A DNA stretch of 64,000 nt from Streptacidiphilus jiangxiensis (GTDB lineage Bacteria; Actinomycetota; Actinomycetes; Streptomycetales; Streptomycetaceae): the NCBI RefSeq assembly GCF_900109465.1, contig NZ_FOAZ01000003.1:124001-188000 (forward strand), written 5' to 3'. The translations under genes and the position numbers were made by a program. Below are positions 6,204 through 13,546 of this stretch, piece after piece (position 1 is the stretch's first letter; each line of letters opens with the position of its first letter). Under the pieces are notes generated by a model. That model did no database searches. It saw nothing but the letters and a program-made list of their open reading frames with translations, and had not been told where the DNA came from.

Positions 6204-6722
6204 TCAAAAACCGGACCCATGCCCGGCAACGCCGAGCAGCAGGCCGAGGAACGTTGAAATCACGAAGACGGCCGATGCGAGCATTCCCCAGCGAATGAGC
6301 CGATACTTGAGTACCGCTATCTGAGACAGGATAAGCAGTTGACTCAAGTCCCGCTCCCCCGCGTCGGTACCGCGAAGAATCTCACCTAGTTCCTGCGCCG
6401 ACAGAATAGATGCGACATCGGCGAAGTAGTGCGCTCGCCCATTGACCGAAAGGCCCGGTCTCGGTGCAACCGCGAGGCCGAGCATGACCAGAGCTGGGAC
6501 CCACGCCGAACAGCCGAACCAGAAGAGGGCAGATGCAAACGCACCAAACGCAGCCGGAGTGACTCCACCCGCACCGGCAGTTGCCACGAGGGCGGCCAGG
6601 GCGGCGACAAGGGCGGAAAGGATGACTCCTGCCTTCTGGTCGGCCTTCGCCATTTCAGTGCGTGTCTCGGCGACGAGTGTGCGCGTCAGCGTCTCGAAAG
6701 GATCAGAGCTTCCCGATGCCAT
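6204..6722 (-). CDS. PycTM-like (DUF5706-type) membrane effector, last gene of the island
   Basis: 172 residues. An amphipathic start (ETRTEMAKADQKAG, 19-32) leads into helix 1 (31-50). Helix 2 follows (63-86), then a soluble loop with HYFADVASI (98-106) and SQIAVLKYRLIRWG (133-146), then helix 3 (147-167). This arrangement, with ETRxExAxADxKA before the first helix and an IAxxKYRxxR element before the last, is that of the PycTM effector domain of Pycsar antiphage systems. I assign it by pattern, not by search. ATG 6722 has AGGGGG upstream; GTG 6779, overlapping the stop of the preceding gene, is the alternative. It is convergent with the peroxidase gene, 48 bases away. Membrane disruption is inferred. 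Confidence 0.7.
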   Translation of the reverse strand: MASGSSDPFETLTRTLVAETRTEMAKADQKAGVILSALVAALAALVATAGAGGVTPAAFGAFASALFWFGCSAWVPALVMLGLAVAPRPGLSVNGRAHYFADVASILSAQELGEILRGTDAGERDLSQLLILSQIAVLKYRLIRWGMLASAVFVISTFLGLLLGVAGHGSGF

Positions 6723-6771
6723 GAGTGGGCCCCCCTGCGGTCGTCGCCTCTGAGCGCGGGTCTTCGAATGC

Positions 6772-8130
6772 TCATCCACCAGAGCCCACTCGCGTCAGCT
6801 CAGCCTCCAGCTCATTGACTGCCCTCGTGACCCTGATGTTCATGGCCGCAATGTGCTCACGACGGCTGGCGTCGAGCTCGGCCTTGCGATGCCGTACCCA
6901 TTGCTCCGTCTCAGCGCGCTCGATCTCCTCACGAGCCATCGCTTTCCGCTCCTCCGTGCGCGTGTGTTCGACATCGATGCGGATCGCACTGTGGCTCCGC
7001 TCCGTCAGGAGGCGGTCGTAACTGGTCGCCCCGCTGAGGAATTTCACCAACACAGGCAAGACGTCGATGACAACGAACAAGAGCCGGATCAACCACACGC
7101 CTATGAAAAGGACGGCATTCCCGTTGGCCAGCGAGTCCAGTGCGCTCATCCGTTCCAGCGCACCGATAGGTCCTTGTGCCGATGCGGCCTCCGCCATTCG
7201 CTGACTGATGAGCCGACTCCGGGAGATCGTGAAGGAGCTCTGCGAGGAGGCCAGGGACCCGGAAAGGGTAGAAATCCGGTTGTTGAGGGTTGTCAGCTGG
7301 GAGGCGTCTGCCGTGATGTCGTGCGTCGCACGGTAGTCATCCGCAACGATGCGCAGGCGCAGGCATTCCGACGAACGCTGCCAAAGCCTCGTTCCCGCGA
7401 TCGGGATCTGCTTCGCACACTCACTGCGAACCTGGTCGTCGATCGAGCTCAGCCGATCCTGCTCCTGCGTAACCTGCCGTTGCAGGACTGCCGCTTGGCT
7501 ACGGAGAGTTGAAAGTTCGCCTTGCTGGCCGCTCGGGGTCGCCGCGAAAGAGAGGAGGTAGCCCCCTGGAGCGCACTCCGAAGGGGCGGAGACGTTGCCT
7601 TGGGAGGGGTCTGGGTTGCACCGCAGCAGTTCGCTGCGTAGATGGTCCAGCGCCTGCTGCCGCCCCTGCTCCACGTTCTGCTCGATCGCAGTCTGGAACA
7701 CGCGAAGAACAAGTGGTTCGGCCACCACGGCGCCGATGAGCAGCGACACCGTCAGGCGAAGCAGCACCGGCGCGACACGACGCCGTGACTGTGCTTGCGG
7801 CGCAATCATCCACCGGTCCAGGAGCAGCACGAAAACTGCCCACAGTACAGCTGGGACAAGGGCGACTATGCTCGCTCGACCCAGCGCCTCGTTGACGAAG
7901 TTCCACATGGAAAACCCGGCAATGGTAGCCGTGCCAACCATGACTGCACCGAGCGCGGTGTGTCGGCTCCGCTCATACCGGACCACACGGAGCAGATCCT
8001 CGTCCACACCTGTCAGGATGCGGAGTCCGCGACCGACATCGAACGGAGCAGGAAGGGCTGCGCTCCAGTTCCTCCCAGCGGGGGCCTGCTTGTGGCTGTG
8101 GATCACACGAACAGGTTCGTCGCCATGCAT
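6772..8130 (-). CDS. DUF4407 coiled-coil membrane protein
   Basis: 452 residues. After a short cytoplasmic region with GVDEDLLRVVRYERSR come three membrane helices (about 59-80, 86-105 and 125-146, the last with GAVVAEPLVLRVF). A long, mostly helical region (150-335) with a cysteine pair near 165-185 follows. A fourth helix (about 338-368) and a charged coiled-coil tail rich in Arg/Glu end the protein. This is the DUF4407 plan; the biochemical role of the family is unknown to me. The ATG shares one base with the stop of the SPFH gene (TAATG), so the pair is translationally coupled and probably interacts. The stop codon lies 50 bases from the PycTM-like start. Confidence 0.75.
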   Translation of the reverse strand: MHGDEPVRVIHSHKQAPAGRNWSAALPAPFDVGRGLRILTGVDEDLLRVVRYERSRHTALGAVMVGTATIAGFSMWNFVNEALGRASIVALVPAVLWAVFVLLLDRWMIAPQAQSRRRVAPVLLRLTVSLLIGAVVAEPLVLRVFQTAIEQNVEQGRQQALDHLRSELLRCNPDPSQGNVSAPSECAPGGYLLSFAATPSGQQGELSTLRSQAAVLQRQVTQEQDRLSSIDDQVRSECAKQIPIAGTRLWQRSSECLRLRIVADDYRATHDITADASQLTTLNNRISTLSGSLASSQSSFTISRSRLISQRMAEAASAQGPIGALERMSALDSLANGNAVLFIGVWLIRLLFVVIDVLPVLVKFLSGATSYDRLLTERSHSAIRIDVEHTRTEERKAMAREEIERAETEQWVRHRKAELDASRREHIAAMNIRVTRAVNELEAELTRVGSGG

Positions 8131-9185
8131 TATGAGTACAGACCCTCTTCGTCATTGATGAAACCGTCTTGTGGACGCGAACCCTGCTGGGGCCTCCCAT
8201 CGTTGCGGTCGGCAGGCGTGGCACCGCCGGAACCCAGCTCGTGCGGCTCTTCAGCCGCAGACACTCCACCTCGTCCCAACACTTGGTGGAGCACGTCCTC
8301 GTAGTTGACGTAGGTGCCCGATGCGGCCAACTGGTCCAGCACCGCATGGACGAGCCGGGTCTCGGTCTCAAGCCTTCGAAGTGCCATCTCGTGGGCCCGC
8401 TCGAGCGCCAGAGCCTCCTGCTGCGCGCGAGCCACCTCGGCGTCGAGCTCCGCCTGACGGCGTCGATCGGCGAGCTCCGCCGGAGAGAGGCTGCCGTGGA
8501 CCAGCGCTTGGGCATCCGTCCATGCAGATCCCCGGCCGATCAGCGCAGCCGACTCCTCAACAAGACCGGCCTCGTAAGTGCCACGCCTCTTGGCCAACTC
8601 CTGCCGGCGAGCCTCCTCCATCAGCTTGCGCTCGTGCTCGCCCACATCGTGCGGTGTCAGCACTTCGATTGTCATGAACTCGATTGACAAGCCGTCGATG
8701 TCGGGCGGCGCGACCGCCATGGAAGCGTCCAATCGAGCTTTGACCTCGGCACGGACAGCATTGACGTCGGTCATTGCGTGGGCCGCTGCGATGCTGATCA
8801 ACTTGTAGTCCTGGCCCAGATAGGCAGAAAGCAGCGCCGAGACGTCGTTGATTCCCTCCCTGGCCACTGTTACCGCGTTGCTCACCTGGCAGCGGAAGGA
8901 GGCGCGCAGCGTGAAGGATGCCCCTTCACTGATCGAGGGCACGACCCGATCCACGGTCACCATGCGCCAGCGAGTATCCACCAAGCTGACCGACGAAGCA
9001 TCCAGGACGTCAGGATGCGTCGGGTCGAAGACGAGGTCACGCGGGTACTCGCGATAGTCACCGCCGACCCGGAACACGAAGACGGCGCCTGGCGGGAGCG
9101 CCGGAGTGTCCTCCCTCCGCGTTCGGCGAGGCCAACGGCTCTCGGGTCTGGCCAGGGTCTTCTCTAGGAGGATGGGGTAGTTCAC
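8130..9185 (-). CDS. SPFH/band-7-like scaffold protein
   Basis: 351 residues with no signal or membrane helix. The N-terminal half has the beta-rich pattern of SPFH (stomatin/prohibitin/flotillin) domains, including FTLRASFRCQVSNAVTVAREG and a helix with AVRAEVKARLDASM. The second half (about 185-300) is a charged helical stretch rich in Ala, Glu and Arg, typical of SPFH oligomerisation coils. GTG 9185 was chosen because AAGGAGAG lies upstream; the frame is open further but that part is not protein-like. SPFH proteins organise membrane microdomains. With DUF4407 coupled directly behind it, I infer a membrane-associated complex. Confidence 0.65.
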   Translation of the reverse strand: MNYPILLEKTLARPESRWPRRTRREDTPALPPGAVFVFRVGGDYREYPRDLVFDPTHPDVLDASSVSLVDTRWRMVTVDRVVPSISEGASFTLRASFRCQVSNAVTVAREGINDVSALLSAYLGQDYKLISIAAAHAMTDVNAVRAEVKARLDASMAVAPPDIDGLSIEFMTIEVLTPHDVGEHERKLMEEARRQELAKRRGTYEAGLVEESAALIGRGSAWTDAQALVHGSLSPAELADRRRQAELDAEVARAQQEALALERAHEMALRRLETETRLVHAVLDQLAASGTYVNYEDVLHQVLGRGGVSAAEEPHELGSGGATPADRNDGRPQQGSRPQDGFINDEEGLYS

Positions 9186-9262
9186 GAACACTCTCTCCTT
9201 GTCGATGATCCGAAGCTCTCTGCGATTGCACGCACGCCACGCGGGGCGTTCGGAGTGGTCAG

Positions 9263-11539
9263 TCAGGAACGGTCTCGGAGCAGGCCGAGCATGAAACGGG
9301 CCAACCGCTGGGTTTCGTCCTCCGCATAATCCGGATGGCTGAGCAAATGGAGCAGGTCGCGACGCAGGGCCTTCCACTGACGCTCAGTCATGGCTTCCTG
9401 CATGGAGCCGCCGAGGGAGCGAACTGTATGGGACAGATCCGGCTCATCCCGCAGAGCCGATAGCGTTGTGCACAGGGCATCAAGTGCGGCGCGGCGCCTA
9501 TTACTCAGCAGCAAGCGCGCCCAAAGCCTGCCCAAGGGCCCTGCCACCGGCGAACTGTTACGCAGCAAACCCGCAGCAAGGGGGCTCGAACCGTCCAAGC
9601 TGGGCCCGCTCAGCATCAGCATTGCCGCGGTGGCAGCTCGTGATTGCTCTCTGGGCTCGCGGGCCGTTTCCATCCTGGTTCGCACATAGCGAAGGGTCAG
9701 TGAAGCACTTCGCTCGTCGTCTTCAGCGGCAGCGAGGAGCAGATACAGGGAACTCCGTGCGGCCCATGCGACCCGTTCACCGCGCGCGCTGAGGTACCAA
9801 AGCCAGTTCAGTGACTCGAACTGATAAGGCCGACCCAGGCCAACCAGAGCCATGGCGGCCGTGACTGCGCGCACTGGCCCCCTCTTGTCGGCCCACTGCA
9901 AGGCCAGGTTGAGCGCGTGGGACGCCAACTGTGGGTCAGCCGACATAAATTGGACCGTCAACGCTGCAGTGACGCGTTGGCTGACGTAGCCCGCCGACCA
10001 CACATCCAGATGGTTCTCCTCCACCTCGGCGAGTGCGTAGCGAGCTAAGAGGGCCAACCCGGCCGCTATCTCCGTCCGAAGCTGAAGGTCCCCGTTCTGG
10101 GAAAGATGCGTGAGCCACTGCCGCAACGGCTGCCACAGCTGCAGCCCGTAGAGCTCATTGAGCTGCTCCAGAACGAGTTCCCTGATGCGAGGCGATACGA
10201 AGAAGACACAACGCTCGACTCTGATCTGATCGTCACTTGTGGAGTAGTCACGTCGTGCTTCTATGAGCCCAGTTGTTGTCACGCTCCATCGACTCCGGCT
10301 CTGCTCGATCCTGAGTTCGGGCAGCGCGGGTACCGCGGCCTCCACGGTCGCGCCAACCATGGTGTGTTCCCAGTTTCGAACAGCAAGGGTCAAGCCGAAC
10401 AGGACCTTCTCGAACGTACGCTCCGGAAGGCCTTCGGCGAAGGCCAGTGCTGCGACGGTCAGCGTGTCCTCCGCAGAACGCGTCGGGTCTCGGAACCATG
10501 CATGGACGCGCGCCCGTTCCCCACTGCGCAGGGACTCAAGCGAATGCTCGAGGCCGCGCTCCGCAAGCGTACGTGCGACAGCAACCACATCGTCGGGTCG
10601 CCGCAGCGTAGAGACCAGTGCGCGCAACTCATCCAGGCGCTCTGGATCGTAGGTCGTATCCGGCGACTCCTTGAGACAGTGATTGAAGAGCTCGCTCGGA
10701 TCAGGTGCCGACCACCTTACGCAGAAACTCTTCAGCGACTGAAGTCGAATCGCCTGCTCCGAGGAGGTGACGACAAGGAACGATCCGCTCTTGCGCAGCT
10801 GACTGCTCAGCCGTCGCATTTCGAACTCCTGCACGCCGGCGGACTGCACGTCGCCGACGTAGTCCAGGATTACGTAGCCGTGCCCGGGCTTGACGGCGCT
10901 GGAATCCGCAAGCTCCGCGAGAGATGTGGCGGGCGAGAGGCTCCGAATCTGCGCATGTCCACCGAGCACCTCCCGCAGCAGCGCGAACGCCGCAGCTCGG
11001 CGTCCGGTGCCATCCTGGCCCACCAGAGACACAACGTTTCGGGAAGTCAGGCGTTCCTGGGCGCTCGAGAAGTGCGGCTGCGGCGGCATGTAGAACTCAA
11101 GTGCCTTGTCGACCTCAGCAAGGTCGACCAGGCCGGGTGTCAGCCCGAGTCGGCTTGCCGTTCCGACGCCAAATACCGAACCCCCGGCATCCACCCGATC
11201 ATGAAAGTGATTGTTCACTACCTGGTGAATGACTTTGCGAAACTCGCCGTACCCATGTTCGTCCTGGTCCTGATCCGAACCCGACTCTCCGACAGGTATG
11301 GGAGCGAGTGCTGGGGCATCCTCGCTGGCTTCGTGCCCCGCAGCTTCCGGCGATTCTTCCGGGACTGTCGCCCTGGGGGACTGCTCACCGGCGACAGCCC
11401 CGTCGGCATTCGCTGTGGCACTGCCTGTGACGACTCGCCGGGCATCTTCCGGGTCGGACAGACGAGGCCCCGACGACTCAGCCGGTCCTTCGTGCTCAGG
11501 CAAGGGGACTCCCGAATCCGAAAACGCTGCCCCGGACAT
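9263..11539 (-). CDS. STAND-like P-loop NTPase with helical-repeat C-terminus and shared VFGxG motif
   Basis: 758 residues. The first ~100 are disordered and acidic. Residues 107-126 carry VVNNHFH followed by GGSVFGVG, a motif shared with the C-terminus of the cyclase-like protein upstream. A nucleotide-binding core follows, with a degenerate Walker A (GQDGTGRR, 174-181, Arg where Lys is usual), a Walker B-like YVILD (222-226) and a sensor-like FLVVTSS (254-260). The remaining ~450 residues look all-helical, as in superhelical sensor regions of STAND proteins. The assigned ATG overlaps the cyclase gene by 44 bases; a later start is possible. I do not recognise a named family. Signal-sensing switch function is inferred from architecture. 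Confidence 0.6.
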   Translation of the reverse strand: MSGAAFSDSGVPLPEHEGPAESSGPRLSDPEDARRVVTGSATANADGAVAGEQSPRATVPEESPEAAGHEASEDAPALAPIPVGESGSDQDQDEHGYGEFRKVIHQVVNNHFHDRVDAGGSVFGVGTASRLGLTPGLVDLAEVDKALEFYMPPQPHFSSAQERLTSRNVVSLVGQDGTGRRAAAFALLREVLGGHAQIRSLSPATSLAELADSSAVKPGHGYVILDYVGDVQSAGVQEFEMRRLSSQLRKSGSFLVVTSSEQAIRLQSLKSFCVRWSAPDPSELFNHCLKESPDTTYDPERLDELRALVSTLRRPDDVVAVARTLAERGLEHSLESLRSGERARVHAWFRDPTRSAEDTLTVAALAFAEGLPERTFEKVLFGLTLAVRNWEHTMVGATVEAAVPALPELRIEQSRSRWSVTTTGLIEARRDYSTSDDQIRVERCVFFVSPRIRELVLEQLNELYGLQLWQPLRQWLTHLSQNGDLQLRTEIAAGLALLARYALAEVEENHLDVWSAGYVSQRVTAALTVQFMSADPQLASHALNLALQWADKRGPVRAVTAAMALVGLGRPYQFESLNWLWYLSARGERVAWAARSSLYLLLAAAEDDERSASLTLRYVRTRMETAREPREQSRAATAAMLMLSGPSLDGSSPLAAGLLRNSSPVAGPLGRLWARLLLSNRRRAALDALCTTLSALRDEPDLSHTVRSLGGSMQEAMTERQWKALRRDLLHLLSHPDYAEDETQRLARFMLGLLRDRS

Positions 11540-12218
11540 CGCCGTGAATGTGGTTCACCACGGTCGGACTCGCCGCGTGGGCCTCGGCCCGGCCCGACTC
11601 AGATCGAAGAGCAGCTGTATCTCGGCCTGACGCCGGCACCGTACGCGGCGTCCAGAGCCACGCTGGCGCGGTGAACTCCTTCTTCCGGACCGACACCCGA
11701 CGAAACATGGTCGGCTCGTACGTGGTGTGCCCGGCACCGACTGTGGCCTGAAAGAGATCGTCAGAGAGAAGCAGAGCGAGATCGATGTCGGGGAGCGTCC
11801 TGAGTGCCTCGTACAGCGGATCGGCTGCCAGCAGACGGCATACGGCAACAACGGCGCCACCGGCGAAGCCGTTGTCAGCCAACTCCACGGGCCCGTGGTG
11901 AAGAGCGACGCGAAGTCGCATGCGATGGATGTCCCGGCGTTCTTCGTTGTAGATCCGTAGTTCCGACACCATGTGCCGGACCAGATCATCGACGTAACGC
12001 GGCTCGTTCTCGTCCTGCGGGATGAGAGCCACCTCGCCATCACCCTGCTGCTGCACCTTCCAACGTGAGCGATCGAGACCAGCCCCGCTTGCCGCCCTGG
12101 TGAGAAGTCGACGCAGGTCGTGTTGGATCTCAGACTGCCGTCGATCGTTGTTCGGGCCGTATCCTTCAGCGTCTAGGGCGATGCACGTACATGGGCGGAA
12201 CCCGGACCAGTCGGTCAC
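11496..12218 (-). CDS. class III nucleotidyl cyclase-like protein with C-terminal signalling motif
   Basis: 240 residues. Strand 1 has ALDAEGYG with Asp16 and the central hairpin has QQGDGEVAL with Asp60. These are the positions of the two metal-binding aspartates of class III adenylate/guanylate/pyrimidine cyclases. RLRVALHHGPVE (101-112) matches the strand before the dimer interface. GGAVVAVCRLLAADP keeps the Arg of the VNxAxRL element but not the Asn, so activity is uncertain. The last 21 residues end in HGDVRGSVFGFG. GTG 12218 was chosen for AGGAG seven bases upstream; ATG 12231-12233 is the alternative. It lies 79 bases behind the Crp-like gene and overlaps the NTPase gene. Confidence 0.7.
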   Translation of the reverse strand: MTDWSGFRPCTCIALDAEGYGPNNDRRQSEIQHDLRRLLTRAASGAGLDRSRWKVQQQGDGEVALIPQDENEPRYVDDLVRHMVSELRIYNEERRDIHRMRLRVALHHGPVELADNGFAGGAVVAVCRLLAADPLYEALRTLPDIDLALLLSDDLFQATVGAGHTTYEPTMFRRVSVRKKEFTAPAWLWTPRTVPASGRDTAALRSESGRAEAHAASPTVVNHIHGDVRGSVFGFGSPLA

Positions 12219-12297
12219 AGCCTCTCCTGTCATCAAACGGTGGCCACGGCGGGTGGGACGGCCAGGCTAGGCTTGGCACGCGGCTGTCGACCCCGTA

Positions 12298-12999
12298 TCA
12301 GTAGGGGTTTTGGGGGTCTACATGGGCGAACTGCATAAGGCGTGGCACGTCGTTCACCGTCACACTGCGGTAGTTCCGCTCCACTAAGCCGATCCGGGTC
12401 AATCCGGCCAGGGCCTTCTCGGCCGTCGCGAGCTTCAGGCCCGCCAGCGACGCCAGCTCCGACTGGGTCAGTGTCAAAGCAAGCACGCTCCGAGGGCGGC
12501 CTGGTTCCGTCAACCCGTACGAGTGCGAGAGTTCGACCAGCACACGAGCAAGTCGTGTCTCCGCGTCGTACGCCTGAAACTCGACGCGTCGCTGGTTCGC
12601 CCAACGCAGTCGAGCGCTCAGCATTCGGATGACGCCTCGCAGGGCATCCGGACGCGCGGCAAGAAATTGCTCCAACGCCTCCCGCTGGACAACCCTCGCC
12701 CGGACCTCGCCACAAGCGATCACAGAACCCGAGCGTGGCCGACTCTCGAAGGCGGCCATCTCACCGACAAGATCACCGCCAACGCGGACGGCCGCCAGCA
12801 TCTCGTACCCGGTCTCAGCATTCAGCAGCACCTTTACAAAGCCGCTGACCAGCAAGATGACGTGCGAGCCTTCCTCTCCCTGTCGCAAGATCCAGCGGTG
12901 GGCCGGATAGATCACCGGCGTACCGATCTCCAGAACGGCCTCCGCGGTGTCCGGCCTCAGCTGCCCCAGAAAGGTTGAAGGCGGCCACACGTTGCCCAT
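12298..12999 (-). CDS. Crp/Fnr family cyclic-nucleotide-binding transcription regulator
   Basis: 233 residues. The N-terminal beta-roll runs to about 125. Its phosphate-binding cassette GEMAAFESRPRSGS retains the Gly-Glu and Arg-Ser that contact cyclic nucleotide phosphate and ribose. A dimer helix follows, then a winged helix-turn-helix (about 170-215, LTQSELASLAGLKLATAEKAL). ATG 12999 was chosen for GGGAGG upstream. No Fe-S cysteines are seen, so it is closer to Crp than Fnr. As first gene of the operon it is a likely autoregulator. Its probable ligand is the product of the cyclase-like protein encoded next; that link is inferred. Confidence 0.85.
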   Translation of the reverse strand: MGNVWPPSTFLGQLRPDTAEAVLEIGTPVIYPAHRWILRQGEEGSHVILLVSGFVKVLLNAETGYEMLAAVRVGGDLVGEMAAFESRPRSGSVIACGEVRARVVQREALEQFLAARPDALRGVIRMLSARLRWANQRRVEFQAYDAETRLARVLVELSHSYGLTEPGRPRSVLALTLTQSELASLAGLKLATAEKALAGLTRIGLVERNYRSVTVNDVPRLMQFAHVDPQNPY

Positions 13000-13546
13000 G
13001 GAACCTCCCACGCGTCCGGGCGACGGCACCCTGATCGACTCTTTGTCCATCGGCCTCCCCCGGAGCGCTGAGAGCGGGAAGGCCCATCATGCCTCCGCTC
13101 CGTCTCCCTGAAACCTCACTTTCGCACTTTGGCTTGATATGATTGCCTATCAATTAGCCTTGATTGCTGAATGTTTGACACTTCGCCAGCCCAGAGGGCT
13201 CTTGGGGTGGGTCCCTATCGCAAGGCGGTCACCACTTCCGGCCATGCCCGCTCCCACTGACGTGCAGCGCCATCGGCCGGCCCTGCGCGGCTTCGATGTC
13301 TGCCGGGATCGTCGTCGGGTCTTCGACTTATGAAGACAAGCGTGCCTATCGTTCTGCGGCGAGTCACCACAGGGCCGCATCATTGATCGCAGACAGAGGT
13401 CCACTCACCCCGGAGGGACCTCAGCCCTCCGTCGCGAAGACGCGTCTGCCCTGCCTCCGTGCGTCCCACCTTGCAAGACCAGGAGTCTCGGCGCCGTGCG
13501 ACTCGTTAACGTTACGTCCGTGGCAAACGCAGCTTTGGAGGTCGCC
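13000..13546. other. intergenic region between the island and pheA
   Basis: Divergent promoter region of about 550 bases without a convincing gene. It contains the operator-like repeats at 13134-13164. It also holds a GTCTTC/GAAGAC inverted repeat (13319-13337) and a 7-bp hairpin CGGAGGG/CCCTCCG (13411-13431) that would lie in a pheA leader. No integrase, tRNA or flanking direct repeat marking an attachment site is visible. Confidence 0.5.
13134..13164. promoter_or_regulatory. overlapping inverted repeats upstream of the six-gene operon
   Basis: TTGATA (13134-13139), eight bases, then TATCAA (13148-13153) form a perfect inverted repeat. The second half also pairs with TTGAT at 13160-13164 as ATCAA-N6-TTGAT, the 5-N6-5 geometry of Crp-type sites. 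The stretch is strikingly AT-rich and lies 135 bases ahead of the regulator's start. It is the natural candidate for the operon's operator. No convincing -35/-10 pair could be fixed. Confidence 0.5.

Follow-up and report, generated by a model that had tools for sequence, protein, structure and literature searches.

Type-matched terminal motifs in a cyclase-like protein and its STAND-like neighbour suggest possibly amyloid-forming tags that switch the cyclase on during a defence response

We analysed a stretch of 64,000 nucleotides from Streptacidiphilus jiangxiensis (assembly GCF_900109465.1, contig NZ_FOAZ01000003.1, positions 124,001 to 188,000; hereafter the window), in which a six-gene operon encodes a class III nucleotidyl cyclase-like protein next to a STAND/NLR-like protein (the NTPase). 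The cyclase tail and the N-terminal region of the NTPase have in common a motif of about 20 residues with the core VFGxG, and in related loci the type of this motif changes in both partners together. The best reading of these data is that the link between an NLR-like sensor and a Pycsar-like cyclase is a homotypic motif resembling the bacterial amyloid signalling sequences (BASS). We consider it fairly probable that each segment is one half of a matched homotypic signalling tag, and that the operon belongs to NLR-like, second-messenger defence.

A motif shared by the cyclase tail and the STAND-like N-terminus

The two motif segments, both read from the translations, are:

11499..11561, minus strand: C-terminal motif of the cyclase, residues 226-246, VVNHIHGDVRGSVFGFGSPLA
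11162..11221, minus strand: N-terminal motif of the STAND-like protein, residues 107-126 of the 758-residue frame, VVNNHFHDRVDAGGSVFGVG

An earlier note, made from the DNA letters and their translations, had described near-identical segments in these two proteins, and both its coordinates and the similarity itself hold. The cyclase ends in TVVNHIHGDVRGSVFGFGSPLA; local alignment of its last 22 residues with the STAND-like protein gave a score of 46, a similarity beyond chance (p = 2.5e-4 from 20,000 shuffled tails). Of the 523 other open reading frames of at least 60 residues in the window, the NTPase was the one that matched the tail best. The tail consensus xVxNxxxGxVDARGAVFGFG is kept in 14 relatives, with a variable linker ahead of it. 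Across the window clade (15 loci), mean conservation of 20-residue blocks was 0.72-0.76 in the cyclase tail versus 0.54 in the linker, and 0.79 in the STAND-side motif versus 0.23-0.52 in the disordered N-terminus that precedes it.

A six-frame scan of 121 whole genomes with a motif profile returned two strong sites (E < 1e-6), one per gene, in each genome with a close operon relative (G000, G062, G009, G032 and G103). The profile was built from sequences that included the two carriers, so that their recovery follows by construction and the missing third carrier is the informative part: no third strong carrier was found in the 121 genomes, and elsewhere only one site, in G036, fell below 1e-4, the next best having E = 0.009. 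G036 holds a sister version of the operon system. At the DNA level, the pattern GSVFGxG occurred at 32 sites in the source genome versus 20 for the reversed control, and none of its in-frame sites other than the two motifs had related flanks.

Both motifs lie in low-confidence segments of the AlphaFold2 models, with predicted local distance difference test (pLDDT) scores mostly of 49-71 in cyclase residues 200-246 and below 50 in NTPase residues 97-120. These models indicate that both segments are likely disordered. The suggestion of a RHIM-like motif in the earlier note was not borne out: the VQxG core is absent, and similarity to the Frankia BASS3 peptide was not significant for either the cyclase (p = 0.17) or the NTPase (p = 0.38). 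On a rough AGGRESCAN-type scale, whose scores we do not rely on, the motif core has a hot spot above that of a Congo Red-staining BASS3 peptide, which is weak evidence for amyloid signalling over plain docking.

Motif types match within systems and differ between them

Related systems carry wholly different motif types from one system to the next, yet the types match within each system (VFGxG, GDxxxGDK, FAVxxGxQ, SAIVVGxG and others). Matched pairs, given as cyclase tail/partner, include:

L084: SGDGSAIVVGNG/SGEGSAIVVGDG, also shown as SLHSGDGSAIVVGNG/YLRSGEGSAIVVGDG
L105: FGSGDAAKTMHKKYY/FGSGDAAGTIYKNYF
L115: GVVHGDQFTGGKHYH/ESVGGDQFTGGKHYH
L120: NVFNVVGTNMVFDRS/NLFNVRGTNLFFDKS
L150: GATVNGGVFGGTNHGIGGGTFSGDIRL/GAQVGGGVFGGTNHGIGGGTFYGDILL
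L081, a second system in the source genome (G000:C70:170500-182300): YNGGVAGRDQITVSG/FHGGMAGRDQTTVSG

Further matched types that differ from that of the window occur in L106 (with L105), L114 and L163. The earlier note had proposed an alignment of homologues as a check, and would have given up the idea if they lacked the motif or varied it independently; the alignment showed the opposite, with the motif kept on both sides and both sides changing type together.

Permutation tests comparing cognate with non-cognate tail/N-terminus similarity supported this matching in 59 loci (p ≤ 5e-5) and equally when confined to 16 loci that form one cluster by cyclase-core identity of ≥55% (p ≤ 5e-5). Over 100 loci, the mean z was 5.7 for cognate versus 2.0 for non-cognate combinations (p ≤ 5e-5), and 47 loci placed their own neighbourhood in the top 10%, with 10 expected. 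It is thus the partner, and not similarity of the cyclase core, that predicts the motif type. The cognate test used 50 tail residues; a 32-residue version on 13 clusters missed motifs farther from the end, such as that of L120. In an ungapped 15-mer test, the low-complexity filter hid the glycine-rich core of the window clade, which was undercounted. Inside the window clade, true pairs shared 10.4 identities versus 9.7 for shuffled ones (p = 0.002).

Several other loci deserve mention. In L084 (3944-10047), the cyclase tail GSLHSGDGSAIVVGNG stands beside a tetratricopeptide repeat (TPR) protein of 1766 residues with a weak nSTAND5 match that starts MTENPGPSVNYLRSGEGSAIVVGDG, giving a motif of RHIM/BASS3-like appearance within a classic NLR-like architecture. 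L081 is a divergent Crp/cyclase/STAND-like system with a 2TM-type protein nearby. Family cyclases in L076, L087 and L098 adjoin a protein of 1460-1515 residues (NACHT/NPHP3-type in L098); the GTVVGVDI-like stretch shared there is weaker than in other pairs and lies past residue 100 of the partner. A further branch (L093, L099, L100, L103, L104 and L108) has the cyclase tail VQHGVHGTAVQGVIHGSIVH and no STAND-like relative nearby, and no clear motif partner was found among its downstream proteins of about 248, 102 and 370 residues.

Small proteins with two motifs

In one branch with a divergent STAND-like gene, a protein of 70-110 residues carries two motifs, A near its N-terminus and B near its C-terminus. 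Motif A reads GDVSGTFIVGDNNRVTNT in the small protein and GDVSGTVVVGSHNTVNN in the divergent STAND-like protein; motif B reads AVFAVEHGTMHVTYN in the small protein and GTVFAVGRGDQYIRHN in the cyclase tail, and a third protein of about 140 residues ends in GEVFAVQHGSQHFAF. Such two-motif proteins are present in L107, L109 (10929-11147) and L110, as well as in L229, L231, L232, L233 and L239. On the simplest reading of their sequences, they would act as bridging adaptors, in which motif A of the receptor meets motif A of the adaptor and motif B of the adaptor meets that of the cyclase. Their occurrence strengthens the view of the motifs as homotypic connectors. By eye, motif A (GDVSGTFIVGDNN) is the more RHIM/BASS3-like of the two.

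The cyclase

11496..12236, minus strand: class III nucleotidyl cyclase-like protein with a disordered tail, assigned from profile, Foldseek and invariant residues; the TTG start at 12236 is uncertain, as relatives align from residue 7

The cyclase has no match in Pfam, NCBIfam or PADLOC, the PycC models of PADLOC included, and its fold was therefore assigned through profile and structure searches. A profile of 45 homologues matched the solved class III cyclases 3mr7 (E 3.7e-5) and 5d0g (E 2.6e-4); matches to RecA fusions in the profile search were set aside as repeat-summation artefacts. The AlphaFold2 model has a pLDDT of 87 overall, with a core above 90 and a low-confidence tail from residue 200, and Foldseek related it to 3mr7 (E 2.6e-8), mycobacterial Ma1120, Cya2 and others. 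Every one of the 45 homologues keeps D22, D66 and R134. D22 and D66 correspond to the two metal-binding aspartates of class III cyclases, and V130 occupies the position of the ribose-orienting asparagine, which is mostly valine in the homologues.

The STAND-like protein

9263..11503, minus strand: STAND/NLR-like protein with a motif-bearing disordered N-terminus, a P-loop-type domain, winged-helix-like strands and an alpha-repeat C-terminus, assigned from AlphaFold2, Foldseek and a weak nSTAND3 match

The AlphaFold2 model runs from a disordered segment (residues 1-73) through a helix, the motif region (97-120) and a P-loop-type alpha/beta domain to winged-helix-like strands and alpha repeats. 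Its nearest solved structures by Foldseek are SAMD9, Avs5, AVAST5 and Avs4, all of STAND type, with low template modelling scores (TM-scores), as would be expected for a flexible multidomain model, so that the likeness is one of architecture only. A weak Pfam match to nSTAND3 was obtained, and a profile search against the sequences of the PDB gave nothing meaningful. By this predicted architecture, the receptor would be an NLR/STAND-like protein resembling the immune receptors of animals and plants. Its Walker A motif is degenerate (GQDGTGRR, with arginine replacing lysine).

Homologues were sought with a 304-residue stretch that begins just ahead of the motif; in the 14 relatives with the motif on both sides, NTPase identity is 42-57%. 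In L072 (3995-7080), the STAND-like gene looks frameshifted, through sequencing error or decay, and the motif and remaining operon are kept.

The earlier note also held that the motif codons of the cyclase overlap the NTPase start, which depends on the choice of start codon. With ATG 11539 (758 residues), the genes would overlap by 44 nucleotides spanning the cyclase motif. Each of the 14 close relatives shows an ATG or GTG for the downstream gene at a position 8 nucleotides ahead of where the cyclase stop codon ends; the window genome reads TTG there (11503). The NTPase therefore most likely comprises 746 residues from TTG 11503, with a common 8-nucleotide overlap, and the motif overlap falls away.

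Operon, genomic setting and distribution

The operon is compact, with its six genes in the order Crp-type regulator, cyclase, STAND-like, Band-7-like, DUF4407 and PycTM. Its remaining members are:

12298..13050, minus strand: Crp/Fnr-type cyclic-nucleotide-binding regulator, upstream of the cyclase (Pfam cNMP_binding E 3.2e-16, HTH_Crp_2 E 8.2e-12)
8130..9377, minus strand: SPFH/Band-7-like protein (Pfam Band_7 E 0.023, below cut-off; the relative in L082 E 1.3e-4)
6772..8130, minus strand: DUF4407 membrane protein (Pfam DUF4407 E 1e-51)
6204..6779, minus strand: PycTM (Pycsar effector) family membrane protein (Pfam PycTM, PF18967, E 2.7e-9, above cut-off; PADLOC PycTM E 5.2e-13)

The PycTM-family protein is likely the second-messenger effector. 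None of the six products has a MoxR or vWA domain by Pfam.

The operon (6204-13050) has a G+C content of 63.5% versus 75% and 70% in its flanks, and pheA/serS-like genes adjoin it. All six genes recur in L062, the closest relative, and the block is likewise present in L066, amid neighbours that differ from those of the window. The island of low G+C and the recurrence of the block in other surroundings suggest that the operon is a transferable module. Cyclase relatives are encoded in 254 of 395 sampled genomes of the same family, and in 7 of 296 genomes of a phylum-wide sample, five of the seven belonging to the same family. Among 100 loci, relatives of the Crp-type regulator accompany the cyclase in at least 81, of PycTM in at least 52, of the Band-7-like protein in at least 58 and of DUF4407 in at least 31, all lower bounds imposed by limited flanks.

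Proposed mechanism and alternatives

We propose that the motif works by coupling receptor assembly to cyclase dimerisation. The STAND-like protein, whose alpha-repeat C-terminus is likely to do the sensing, would oligomerise on a trigger. Crowded in this way, the N-terminal VFGxG motifs may form stacked beta strands that seed an ordered assembly of the BASS/HET-s kind. The matching motif on the flexible C-terminal tail of the cyclase would let this assembly recruit the enzyme, a pairing that the co-variation supports and a contact that we postulate. Class III cyclases dimerise head to tail and have their active sites at the dimer interface, as documented for Pycsar cyclases (PMC11224242), so that concentrating cyclases via their tails would be a plausible on-switch. 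Coupling probably operates through proximity-driven dimerisation of the cyclase, whose fold and metal aspartates would suit it to make a cyclic nucleotide. Judging from the protein families, this nucleotide may open the PycTM membrane effector and also be read by the Crp-type regulator, with growth arrest or compartment death and changed operon expression as the expected outcome. The exchange of motif types between systems suggests that the motif acts as an address, which may keep paralogous systems apart.

Several considerations weigh against this proposal. From shared, specific and co-varying motifs, the folds and the gene context, we infer the trigger, the assembly, the physical contact, the activity and product of the cyclase, and the role in defence. 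The amyloid form of the assembly is suggested by likeness to BASS, HET-s and RHIM systems. Nucleotide-driven oligomerisation of the receptor is not assured, given its degenerate Walker A, and valine at the position of the ribose-orienting asparagine (V130) makes catalysis by the cyclase uncertain. About half of the 100 loci rank their own partner outside the top 10%, the permutation tests remove relatedness only in part, and residue-level co-variation within the clade is modest and confounded by shared descent.

The strongest alternative, which we regard as unlikely though deserving of attention, is a conventional docking pair of short beta strands (1:1 or a small oligomer) that holds cyclase and STAND-like protein in a pre-formed complex, with no amyloid-type polymerisation or templating. 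Co-variation and specificity fit such a pair equally well, and the motifs are single-copy and of about 20 residues, their amyloid nature in our proposal being drawn by analogy. Their layout, however, is that of amyloid signalling motifs: they lie at the receptor N-terminus and the effector C-terminus, next to disordered linkers, are encoded by neighbouring genes and come in many interchangeable types, in multicellular actinobacteria (PMC7889193, PMC9815663).

It is improbable that both motifs are parallel address tags for a third protein, such as a Band-7 or DUF4407 scaffold, or for a membrane site, and never touch each other. The frequency of Band-7 relatives (at least 58 of 100 loci) and DUF4407 relatives (at least 31) would suit this idea, but the 121 genomes lack a third motif carrier, matched pairs are more widespread than the 31 loci in which a DUF4407 relative was counted as a minimum, and in one branch the motifs sit on the bridging partner itself. 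Short and glycine-rich motifs with a single-pair p of only 2.5e-4 might also have arisen by chance, low-complexity convergence or an overlapping-frame effect and have no function, yet this is very hard to reconcile with conservation of both motifs in 14 relatives whose NTPases are 42-57% identical, encoding about 280 bp apart in different frames, and family-wide co-variation of motif types.

Extending the homotypic-tag proposal beyond the window, we tentatively suggest that a large family of innate-immune relays may have gone unrecognised in streptomycetes. In these, NLR-like receptors would activate second-messenger cyclases via interchangeable amyloid-templating tags, some with small two-tag adaptors that translate between tags, and amyloid signalling would feed a Pycsar-like cyclic-nucleotide pathway.

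Comparison with known systems

By its layout, the system resembles BASS pairs (Dyrka et al. 2020, as described in PMC7889193, PMC9815663 and PMC8086366). In those accounts, as here, a motif of about 20 residues is found at the N-terminus of an NLR/STAND protein and at the C-terminus of the product of an adjacent gene, in disordered surroundings, with many motif families and in multicellular actinobacteria. It differs in its partner, which is a class III cyclase and not an effector of the Bell, CHAT or TIR kind, in its VFGxG core, set apart from BASS3 by comparison with a single peptide, and in its degenerate receptor Walker A. Of the BASS-type pairing put forward in the earlier note, the placement of the motifs and the STAND-like architecture of the receptor stand, and the co-variation supports it. 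We found no report in the open literature of a BASS-like motif joining a STAND-like receptor to a cyclase, though mention in the original BASS paper is possible.

With Pycsar (PycC with PycTM or PycTIR; PMC11224242), the operon shares a cyclase of class III fold with two metal-binding aspartates near a PycTM-family membrane protein and, likely, an abortive response driven by a cyclic nucleotide. Unlike in Pycsar, the cyclase has no PADLOC PycC match, would be regulated in trans via its motif tail, and is accompanied by STAND-like receptor, Band-7, DUF4407 and Crp genes. Avs/AVAST proteins and SAMD9 provide the nearest solved structures to the predicted receptor, at low TM-scores; Avs5 (SIR2-STAND) has its effector domain within the same chain, whereas here the presumed effector is separate and joined by the shared motif.

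The conflict systems of Kaur et al. (2020; PMC7159879) likewise bring together domains of cyclic nucleotide (cNMP) cyclases with Band-7, STAND proteins and Crp-like regulators, and occur in multicellular bacteria. In the passages of that paper on which we draw, their defining feature is a ternary core of the MoxR-vWA-VMAP or iSTAND type; no such core occurs in the window operon, and a shared short motif is not among the features described. An iSTAND ternary system was considered as an assignment and dropped, since the operon is without MoxR or vWA and iSTAND is reported to be nearly absent in actinobacteria.

The partners described for known amyloid signalling pairs of bacteria are of the Bell, CHAT or TIR kind. 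If the partner is a cyclase, NLR-type sensing would be connected with cyclic-nucleotide immunity, which would suggest how cyclases without a sensor domain of their own get turned on. With so many mutually exclusive types, the tags lend themselves to testing the orthogonality of signalling, and the two-tag adaptors recall the adaptor logic of animal innate immunity. Type-matched tags in both partners suggest that possibly amyloid-forming tags switch the cyclase on during a defence response.

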